Shown here: one piece after another, positions 20 to 2,554 of the stretch
Layout of the letters: each line of letters begins with the position of its first letter
Position numbering within the stretch: position 1 is the stretch's first letter
Source of the DNA: Bacillota bacterium
GTDB taxonomy: Bacteria > Bacillota > UBA4882 > UBA10575
Assembly (NCBI GenBank): GCA_012838955.1
Contig: DUOH01000014.1
Span: 1 to 38,509 of the forward strand
Length of the DNA: 38,509 nucleotides
Direction: 5' to 3'
Notes under the pieces: generated by a model
The model's database searches: none
Told to the model about the DNA's origin: nothing
The model's input: only the letters and a program-made list of their open reading frames with translations
Position numbers and translations under genes: made by a program

Positions 20-48
20 ATACAAAAACCCTCTCCGTGAGAGAGGGT
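20..48 (-). terminator. Intrinsic terminator ending the putative riboswitch-controlled RNA
   Basis: On the minus strand an 8-bp stem (bases 28-35 pairing with 41-48, loop 36-40) is followed at once by TTTTTGTATTT. On the plus strand the hairpin is followed by alternating TA, not a T-run, so it reads as a minus-strand terminator. It closes the transcript that starts near 541 before any gene left of the window could be reached. Confidence 0.75.
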
Positions 49-55
49 ATATATA

Positions 56-390
56 TATAAAAGAGGGGGATTATCGTCGCCAATGTTGCTGATCATGCTT
101 GGAGGATTTGTACGACGCGCCGAAGAAGGAGTCATGTTGTATATTCATGGTTGTCTGTCGTAGTTGCCATCTGGTTGCGGCCTTCTTCGACTAAGTTTTC
201 TCTGGATGTCGTATCCGGGTGTCATGTCTGATATCTATCTGGTGTTATTTCTGGATGTCTGATCTGTTGTCTATCTGATGTCGTTTCTGGATGTCTGATC
301 TGTTGTCTATCTGATGTCGTTTCTGGATGTCTGATCTGTTGTCATACCTTAATGTCTATACTAGTTGGATGAACATCCCCCTCTTTTATA
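56..390. repeat. Perfect 16-bp inverted repeat pair enclosing 303 bp
   Basis: TATAAAAGAGGGGGAT at 56-71 is the exact reverse complement of bases 375-390. The arms sit directly inside the two minus-strand terminators. As RNA they would form a long-range closing helix; as DNA they could be the ends of a tiny mobile element. I see no flanking target-site duplication and no transposase, so the RNA-helix reading is preferred. Confidence 0.8.
205..350. repeat. 36-bp tandem repeats made of about 12-bp sub-repeats
   Basis: Two full units and most of a third (248-283, 284-319, 320-343) repeat with an exact 36-bp period. On the minus strand each unit splits into three similar pieces: GACAACAGATCA, GACATCCAGAAAC and GACATCAGATA. 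Degenerate pieces continue to about 205 and 355. The copies are contiguous with no spacers. Confidence 0.85.
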
Positions 391-421
391 GCAAAAACCC
401 CAATGCAAAGCATTGAGGTTT
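391..421 (-). terminator. Intrinsic terminator (expression platform of the c-di-GMP riboswitch)
   Basis: A 12-bp stem (minus-strand 421-410 with 406-395, one G-U pair, 3-nt loop) is followed by TTTTT. It begins about 8 nt after the aptamer ends. Its 5' arm contains ACCUCAA, which is exactly complementary to UUGAGGU inside the aptamer (about 502-508), so a mutually exclusive antiterminator is possible. That arrangement would suit ligand-controlled termination. Confidence 0.85.
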
Positions 422-429
422 CCGTACTT

Positions 430-541
430 GGCAACCGAGCTATCATGGCAGTCTTTCTCAACTTTTGCTTTAGCAAAAGCAAAAGACTGCTTTAGACCTC
501 AAGCTTTGCGTCCCTGTTTTTCAACAGGTTTGCCTTTATCA
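430..541 (-). promoter_or_regulatory. Cyclic di-GMP-I (GEMM-I) riboswitch aptamer
   Basis: Read on the minus strand, the aptamer shows the conserved elements in order. They are GGCAAACC, a stem capped by a GAAA tetraloop (CUGUU-GAAA-AACAG), GGGACGCAAAGC, then GGUCUAAAGC. A long hairpin follows (GCAGUCUUU... pairing with ...AAAGACUGC), then CAUGAUAGC and GGUUGCC at the 3' side. These match the Vibrio Vc2-type GEMM-I consensus, including the tetraloop. An intrinsic terminator follows at once. No diguanylate cyclase, phosphodiesterase, motility or adhesion gene lies in the window; the only sequence downstream is the putative non-coding RNA. Family assignment is confident from primary sequence; on/off direction is not determined. 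Confidence 0.93.
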
Positions 542-576
542 TTTTATAATTATAAATTATAATTTATACAATACAA
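542..576 (-). promoter_or_regulatory. Putative promoter of the riboswitch transcript with overlapping palindrome
   Basis: On the minus strand TTGTAT (571-576) and TATAAT (549-554) are separated by 16 bp and would start RNA near 540-542, at the riboswitch 5' end. The spacer and -10 region overlap a perfect 18-bp palindrome, TATAAATTATAATTTATA (551-568), which is well placed to be a repressor operator. The same motif occurs near the GntR and transketolase genes (34875-34892 and 34115-34130). Confidence 0.55.
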
Positions 577-647
577 ATATACCATAGCGCTCTATTTTTG
601 GCTAGTGTTTCATTGTAAACACTTTGTAAAGGCAACTTTCTGAATAA

Positions 648-802: not shown

Positions 803-2554
803 CTAGAACATCTCTTGCACAAGAAAGTGGAATTTCGGCCCAGAATCCGCGCCCCGGTCAGTCCAGGCAAAATCGAAACGTAGCTGGCCCAATGGAGTTA
901 TGTACCGCAAACCGGCGCCATATCCCTGGTAATATTCTTTATAGTCAACGGAGCCGAGGTCATGAAAGATCACGAGTTCGCAGCGGTCGTTCCCAGGAAA
1001 TCTCTGTCGCAGTTCCAGGTTGCACAGGAATAACTGATCGCCCTGGAGAAAGTTATTGTTATACCCCCGGATTGAGGTTGTTCCTCCCAATAGGAAGAAA
1101 CCCGTCTCCGGCACATTCCCCACCAGGGTCCCTCCTCTGATCCTGTACCCAAAAGTTGTATACTCTCCAGGGGAAAAAAACTGTTTAAATTCACCCACAT
1201 ATTTTTGATAATCATACTTTCCGCCCAAAAACCCGCCATAAAAATTCATATTCACCTGCGCCAGGTAACCACCGGTGGTATAAAAGAAATTGGCCAATAA
1301 ACGTTGGTCATCAACCAGACCAAACCCAAAACTATTATTCCAGTATGTTTCCACCTCCAGGGGAAGACTGGCATAATCCGGGGCCACCCAGGAGTCAAAC
1401 TCCGTCTCGACCAGCTCAAACTGGAGAGAGGTGCTGAGGCGGAGATTCCTTTGAAGCGGACGCCCCAGGGAGACCTCCACTCCGGTACTGCGTAGATCGT
1501 ACAGATATTCATGGGCCAAGCCGCCGGCTCTGTATACTGCTTCCTGGCCATAATCGAGATCGGAGTAGAGACGGATGCTCAACGACGTATTATGCTCATC
1601 CAGCCAAGGCTCTCTGAAGAACAGGTTAAAGTGGCATAGTTCTCCGGGATTTGTCTCCAGCCCAAATGAGATTTGCTGGCCTCTGCCCCGGAAGTTGGGA
1701 TCTGTGATGTAACCAAAACCCACTAGTTCACTGGTTTTTGGCGCATAACTAAAGCCGAAATTGAACTGAATGAGCTGCCCCTCGGTCAGTTCAAGGACTA
1801 CATCCATGATCTCCGGATCCGAGGTCGGTTGAAAATGTAGATCAATATCTTCAAAGATCTGTAACCGGCGTAGAACATTAAGATCTTCCCTGATCGTATT
1901 CACATTCAAGAGATCTCCTTCTTGCAAAGAGAGTTCTCTAGTTACCACAAACTCTGCTGTCTTCTTCAAGCCCTTAATGATTGTTTTACCTAGTTTCAGC
2001 TCAATAAGCCCTATGGTTACCACTCCATCCGGGGCTATCTCTGTTTTGGCCGGATCCAACGTCAATAACTGCCCGTTCTTCTCTTGAAACTTGGCGAAAG
2101 CTTCACGAAAAACCTGGTTAATCTCTACGCTGTTCACTACATGCCCCTTTTTTTCTTCAACACAAGCGAGGAGTTCGGCAGGGGAGACCGTCTCCAAGCC
2201 GACCAAGCGAAACTCTTTAAAAAGCGGATTCTCTTGTACAAAGAAGACTATTCTTATCCCGCTGCCTACCGCCTCAGTCCAATGGTCCACTGCGCGGAAA
2301 TAACCCAAGTCCATGATGGCCCGAGCATTCTTCTCCACTGTTTTTTCACTGAAAGGCTCACCCAGGCGTATATTGATCAGTTTTCGTAGGATAATCTCTG
2401 TAGCGACATGCTCATTCCCTCTCACCTCAATATCAAGCACAATAGGTGCGGTCTGCCCCTCCACCATTACTGCTGCAAAAAACAGGAGAACTGTGAAAAC
2501 CCACCTGAATAAGGATTGTAATACCGGGTATAAGCTTTTCTGAGCCTTGTTCAC
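803..2554 (-). CDS. Omp85/BamA-family outer membrane protein (POTRA repeats plus beta-barrel)
   Basis: A 583-residue protein starting at GTG after a strong GAGGAGGGG site. An N-terminal signal segment (about 11-34) is followed by roughly three POTRA-like repeats (about 38-105, 110-182, 190-258) and a C-terminal barrel. The barrel carries the Omp85 signature LGGTTSIRGY near residue 488, equivalent to the VRGF/Y motif of BamA lid loop 6. The chain ends in a terminal Phe (FHFLVQEMF), like an outer-membrane beta-signal. BamA is usually near 800 residues with five POTRAs, so this is a short form like TamA or the Omp85 of diderm Firmicutes. Its likely role is insertion of beta-barrel proteins into an outer membrane. 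No skp, lpx or lol gene is visible nearby. It is preceded by a truncated copy of its own 5' end. Confidence 0.9.
   Translation of the reverse strand: MNKAQKSLYPVLQSLFRWVFTVLLFFAAVMVEGQTAPIVLDIEVRGNEHVATEIILRKLINIRLGEPFSEKTVEKNARAIMDLGYFRAVDHWTEAVGSGIRIVFFVQENPLFKEFRLVGLETVSPAELLACVEEKKGHVVNSVEINQVFREAFAKFQEKNGQLLTLDPAKTEIAPDGVVTIGLIELKLGKTIIKGLKKTAEFVVTRELSLQEGDLLNVNTIREDLNVLRRLQIFEDIDLHFQPTSDPEIMDVVLELTEGQLIQFNFGFSYAPKTSELVGFGYITDPNFRGRGQQISFGLETNPGELCHFNLFFREPWLDEHNTSLSIRLYSDLDYGQEAVYRAGGLAHEYLYDLRSTGVEVSLGRPLQRNLRLSTSLQFELVETEFDSWVAPDYASLPLEVETYWNNSFGFGLVDDQRLLANFFYTTGGYLAQVNMNFYGGFLGGKYDYQKYVGEFKQFFSPGEYTTFGYRIRGGTLVGNVPETGFFLLGGTTSIRGYNNNFLQGDQLFLCNLELRQRFPGNDRCELVIFHDLGSVDYKEYYQGYGAGLRYITPLGQLRFDFAWTDRGADSGPKFHFLVQEMF

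Follow-up and report, generated by a model that had tools for sequence, protein, structure and literature searches.

A predicted c-di-GMP-I riboswitch unit with no credible open reading frame between its two terminators

Introduction

A c-di-GMP riboswitch in an RNA that lacks a conserved open reading frame (ORF) has a precedent. The 445-nt merRNA of Bdellovibrio carries such a riboswitch, has no conserved ORF downstream, is massively expressed and has been proposed to serve as a store of c-di-GMP (PMC3627812). Riboswitches that control non-coding RNAs are known from Listeria, where AspocR and Rli55 are terminated early by vitamin B12 riboswitches (PMC8079631). Moreover, in one survey the c-di-GMP riboswitches were the family with the highest tendency to be placed antisense to genes (PMC9943018).

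Here we describe a c-di-GMP-I (GEMM-I) riboswitch at one end of a Bacillota contig. The window that we analysed is the whole of this contig, C62 of a 67-contig draft, and is 38,509 nt long. Like other GEMM-I riboswitches with an intrinsic-terminator platform (RF01051), the locus has a complete aptamer, a terminator directly after it and a predicted, mutually exclusive antiterminator; unlike them, it has no protein gene before a second terminator or within 824 nt. It resembles merRNA in the length of its predicted RNA, in its c-di-GMP riboswitch and in the lack of a conserved ORF downstream, but here a predicted termination switch separates the aptamer from the interval that follows. With AspocR and Rli55 it shares a ligand predicted to end a non-coding transcript early and the absence of a coding gene under riboswitch control (the interval is ORF-less and the next gene lies 824 nt away). 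It differs from these in its ligand, in having no antisense partner gene that overlaps the interval and in that no ANTAR elements were recognised (without a model search). As in the antisense-acting c-di-GMP riboswitches (PMC9943018), the switch does not precede a gene on its own strand; those riboswitches have an opposite-strand gene downstream, however, whereas no credible one lies opposite the interval here (plus-strand ORFs of at most 32 aa). Given merRNA, AspocR, Rli55 and the antisense cases, a non-coding RNA at this locus would be a variant of known themes.

Results

The riboswitch and its two terminators

The features of the locus, in order of transcription with the neighbouring gene and the contig end last, are as follows.

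576–604, minus strand: promoter-like site upstream of the aptamer, TAGCCA-17-TATATT with an extended -10 (consensus scan, 9/12 matches)
427–544, minus strand: c-di-GMP-I (GEMM-I) riboswitch aptamer with an enlarged P3 hairpin (cmscan, RF01051)
496–509, minus strand: predicted 5' strand of the antiterminator, GCAAAGCUUGAGGU, within the aptamer (duplex with 405–419)
405–419, minus strand: predicted 3' strand of the antiterminator, which is the 5' arm and loop of terminator 1 (folding)
393–422, minus strand: intrinsic terminator 1, which serves as expression platform of the riboswitch (hairpin of 13 bp with a U-run, -16.0 kcal/mol; counterpart in six relatives)
368–390, minus strand: 5' arm of the closing stem, including the Shine–Dalgarno (SD)-like AAAGAGGGGG (inverted repeat with 56–78)
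79–367, minus strand: interval without a credible ORF; the same slot holds a 54–64 aa ORF in relatives (ORF scan; fold z=+0.12)
205–343, minus strand: tandem array with 3.9 copies of a 36-nt repeat, rich in A and C on the transcribed strand (TRF score 206)
56–78, minus strand: 3' arm of the closing stem, AUCCCCCUCUUUUAUA, anti-SD-like (inverted repeat, shuffles, covariation)
28–48, minus strand: intrinsic terminator 2 (consensus scan)
803–2,554, minus strand: upstream same-strand gene for a POTRA/Omp85 outer-membrane protein (Pfam PF01103, E=4.6e-34; PF07244, E=6e-17)
1–127, no strand: contig-end overlap, identical to C23:57657–57783 (127 nt at 100%, flush with the ends of both contigs)

A first-pass annotation, made from the sequence, had claimed a complete GEMM-I aptamer with its own intrinsic terminator, about 340 nt with no plausible ORF and a second intrinsic terminator on the same strand. 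Each of these elements was borne out. The Rfam model RF01051 matches positions 544–427 (minus strand) over its whole length (model positions 1–87) with 78.7 bits against a gathering score of 35 (E=5e-14), and the aptamer is predicted to bind c-di-GMP. Terminator 1 is a 13-bp hairpin at 422–394 followed by a U-run; it was located by folding, and a simple terminator scanner gave no entry for it. The scanner places terminator 2 at 48–28 (minus strand). The promoter-like site at 576–604 is weak, with about two sites arising from shuffles of the same region.

The aptamer and its platform have an alternative pairing. A predicted antiterminator of 14 pairs (496–509 with 405–419, -20.2 kcal/mol), as opposed to the 13 pairs of the terminator, is the minimum free energy fold of the nascent transcript in the window. 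An antiterminator between the aptamer and the 5' arm of the terminator is possible in all seven units of the subtype described below, and in six of them it is the predicted nascent fold, joining GCAAAGC..GAGGU of the aptamer to the terminator 5' arm. In the absence of c-di-GMP, the 5' arm of terminator 1 would be taken up by aptamer bases 509–496, so that transcription would continue as far as terminator 2 and leave an RNA of about 540 nt. Once c-di-GMP is bound, the aptamer would fold, terminator 1 would form and the product would be limited to an RNA of about 150–175 nt. Because the ligand-bound aptamer would block the antiterminator and allow terminator 1 to form, c-di-GMP is predicted to turn read-through off. 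The window probably holds a free-standing c-di-GMP-I riboswitch transcription unit of OFF type, belonging to a small family-specific group; we infer its transcription and the direction of switching.

The interval between the terminators

There is no ORF of at least 50 aa on the minus strand in 49–390, where the longest complete ones reach 25–26 aa, and the plus strand of the same region has only ORFs of up to 32 aa. The interval is repeat-rich, as had been stated, with 3.9 copies of a 36-nt unit at 205–343; the transcribed strand of these repeats has an A content of 45% and a U content of 12%. A 12-nt sub-period runs through the 36-nt repeat, seen as 7.5 copies of GATGTCTGATCT on the plus strand. 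The accompanying description of the product as a structured RNA fits the stem that closes the interval but not what lies inside it, since 79–367 folds no better than its shuffles (z=+0.12).

No homologue of the interval was detected among the genomes searched, an Rfam scan gave only sub-threshold matches (the best, EF3314_EF3315, with 25.1 bits against a gathering score of 100) and Hfq-type ARN motifs are not enriched. The interval is single-copy in its own genome, contig overlap aside. We rejected a mobile element or dispersed repeat on the basis of this single copy and of target-site duplications, which were sought by eye with none clear. A phage origin was likewise rejected: no match was found in phage records, and the subtype pattern had none in viral contigs.

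The closing stem is absent from the first-pass annotation. A perfect 16-nt inverted repeat (56–71 with 375–390) encloses the interval and extends to 23 nt at 87% (56–78 with 368–390); the longest comparable inverted repeat in 500 dinucleotide shuffles was 10 nt. The SD-like 5' arm and the 3' arm pair in the window and in two relatives, G010 and G003, and 4 of the 12 pairs have changed on both sides. This covariation, which 9 of 500 shuffles equal, comes from hand-chosen arms in three sequences only, two of them coding units. By inspection, shorter versions of the stem are possible in G002a, G007 and G002b but not in G005, and that of the window is the longest among all units.

Downstream of the unit

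The first 127 nt of the window are the last 127 nt of contig C23, which ends there. Such an identity at both contig ends is the signature of an assembly-graph overlap, and strongly suggests that C23 continues the window sequence. The next gene on the same strand encodes a GntR/FCD regulator; its GTG start lies 824 nt from the aptamer, behind terminator 2, and it is preceded by a promoter-like site of its own (TTGACA-17-TATCTT). Given the overlap with C23, we rejected a hidden target gene beyond the contig end: an ordinary target downstream of base 1 is unlikely to have been missed, although some transcripts may run past terminator 2. The claim that the riboswitch has no protein target is supported: we found none in the interval, and the GntR gene is distant and has its own promoter-like site.

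Our survey covered 33 GEMM-I loci in the bacterial family and 18 outside it. All 50 loci other than the window have an ORF of at least 50 aa within 467 nt, a limit that is the script value for L027, whose nearer ORF the script missed.

Related units and a small-protein family

Seven units, including that of the window, have the same aptamer subtype (AGCUCGGUUGCC) and a CUUUGC-containing terminator, and all are found in one bacterial family. A scan of GTDB-220 contigs with the subtype pattern, in a collection that may lack the record of the window itself, hit only six places, which correspond to the six relatives in this family.

The slot after terminator 1 holds a 54–64 aa ORF in four of the seven units (G002a, G003, G010 and G005). 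Small ORFs of G002, G003 and G005 are 47–56% identical to that of G010, and the four align on a common core, L...L..I....L...N..T......YR (alignment A1). They match their profile with E values of 1.8e-24 to 7.9e-33, figures that are partly circular since the same ORFs built the profile. The loci are L009 1666–1848 (plus strand), L017 500–664 (plus strand), L071 (minus strand) and L027 (after the aptamer). Nothing convincing was found for the small protein in Pfam or PHROGs, and among 398 genomes of the phylum only family members matched. An eighth place, in G008, has a broken copy in which an internal tandem duplication changes the frame (L102 1434–1683 on G008:C127, minus strand, at a contig end); such damage to the small-protein gene is therefore seen within the family. 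Where the ORF is present, the ribosome-binding region may form a helix with sequence downstream of the stop codon (in G003 and G010, shorter in G002a, not in G005), and in the finished transcript this could mask the ribosome-binding site. The stem of the window would have no such task because no ORF follows it.

The remaining three units (the window, G007 and G002b) are ORF-less. Neither the window genome nor the interval gave any match in searches with the small-protein profile. When the interval was aligned at the nucleotide level with each of the four ORFs, three scores fell within those of shuffles (57, 249 and 195 of 300 as high). The fourth, a 33-nt match to the G005 ORF that 8 of 300 shuffles equal, falls short of significance given that four tests were made. 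Neither the profile nor local alignment thus detected a decayed ORF. With neither an ORF nor a profile match, the window is not classed as a coding member of the small-protein unit.

The G007 and G002b units both lie directly after the tmRNA gene. In G002 (L070, on G002:C5, minus strand) the aptamer (1501–1588) lies about 16 nt past the 3' end of tmRNA (1604–1956), which leaves hardly any room for a promoter of its own; in G007 (L008) tmRNA and aptamer are about 150 nt apart. Their intervals between the two terminators are 59 and 58 nt long and 84% identical over aligned positions, and the one-base difference in length shifts the frame, which speaks against a coding role. Between G007 and G002b, the next coding ORF downstream is 83% identical, similar to the interval, while the spacer after terminator 2 differs greatly in length (306 against 172 nt).

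Discussion

We favour, at roughly even confidence, the view that the window unit descends from a small-protein unit under c-di-GMP control and has lost the ORF while its switch is still intact; the descent is what we infer. In the window genome, the coding part would have been lost or replaced by tandem repeats, so that read-through would give an RNA without a credible ORF, held together by the long closing stem. Three observations speak for this view: most of the closest counterparts are coding, the G008 gene has been broken by a tandem duplication and the window interval consists largely of tandem repeats. The argument for descent is one of architecture only, since no ORF-bearing unit has a homologue of the window neighbours next to it. 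Some observations weigh on the other side. By the sequence comparisons above, no ORF remnant appears to survive in the interval; the aptamer, both terminators and the longest stem of all units are intact, which is more than a decaying relic would need; and two species retain ORF-less versions (G007 and G002b). Less probably, descent went further, so that a coding unit turned into an RNA unit under second-messenger control, with sister species keeping a shorter ORF-less version beside tmRNA.

An alternative that we hold more tentatively than descent from a coding unit is that the locus makes a functional, c-di-GMP-gated non-coding RNA. At low c-di-GMP, the RNA of about 540 nt would act in trans through its closing stem and A/C-rich repeats, for example by sequestering an RNA-binding protein (in the way that Rli55 captures EutV) or as an antisense RNA. 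This would account for the missing ORF and downstream target, the intact switch and terminators and a stem kept with compensatory changes, and it would fit the ORF-less units of G007 and G002b, whose short intervals are conserved while the spacer varies in length. Riboswitch-controlled non-coding RNAs are, moreover, known (AspocR and Rli55, PMC8079631; merRNA, PMC3627812). However, the interval is unique to the window genome among those searched, its fold inside the stem is no better than that of shuffles, no Rfam family exceeds its threshold, ARN motifs are not enriched, and two of the three sequences behind the stem covariation are coding units. The regulatory-RNA proposal of the first-pass annotation is accordingly supported only in part: the lack of a protein target and the ORF-less state of G007 and G002b speak for it, but it is weakened by an interval that has no detected relatives and folds no better than shuffles within the stem. 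A coding gene in the same slot of relatives would count against it, and the search for one turned up a conserved small ORF in four and a broken copy in a fifth, which partly undercuts it.

Two further explanations are less likely than either of these, and we consider each improbable. Translation of a very short or non-standard peptide might begin from the SD-like AAAGAGGGGG, giving for instance MFIQLV, MTTDQTSRNDIR or the 25-aa MNIQHDSFFGASYKSSKHDQQHWRR. The SD-like arm is kept, and the frame of the 25-aa MNIQHDSFFGASYKSSKHDQQHWRR ends just before the 3' stem arm, in the same relative place as the ORFs of the relatives; but the start codons are badly positioned with respect to the SD-like site, every repeat unit contains a TAG in the frame that has the ATG, and there is no similarity to the small protein or to Pfam. 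The riboswitch could instead be mainly a 3'-end device for the upstream gene (Omp85 here, tmRNA in G002b), providing two alternative c-di-GMP-dependent 3' ends. The Omp85 gene ends about 260 nt upstream of the aptamer on the same strand with no terminator found between them, the G002b aptamer starts very close to the tmRNA 3' end, and riboswitches at the 3' ends of genes are mentioned in PMC3627812. Against this stand the promoter-like site upstream of the aptamer and the setting of the ORF-bearing relatives, in which the unit sits among unrelated genes.

If the RNA proves functional, it would be a c-di-GMP-gated regulatory RNA, a link between second-messenger state and RNA regulation of which just a few isolated examples are known so far. 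If the ordinary reading is right instead, the relatives still define an undescribed family of small proteins under c-di-GMP-I control. Coding and ORF-less versions coexist under the same switch, and the passage from coding to non-coding is thereby open to study.

The survey also yielded other GEMM-I loci. The window genome (G000) has two further copies. One (L003 1501–1614, minus strand, G000:C36) has a terminator after it, beyond which a 60-aa protein with paired cysteines is encoded (MAEEYVCIQCGMETNEIRCPRCK...). The other (L002 1501–1597, plus strand, G000:C5) is followed by a U-tailed hairpin and a second strong hairpin, with the first ORF, lipoprotein-like, 373 nt away, a gap that is also unusually long. 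A target that recurs after GEMM-I in the family (L013, L030, L031, L065, L067, L068, L072, L074, L086 and L087) is a protein of roughly 170 aa; its start resembles a signal peptide (..QFAGILLL..), and it is conserved in several genera.
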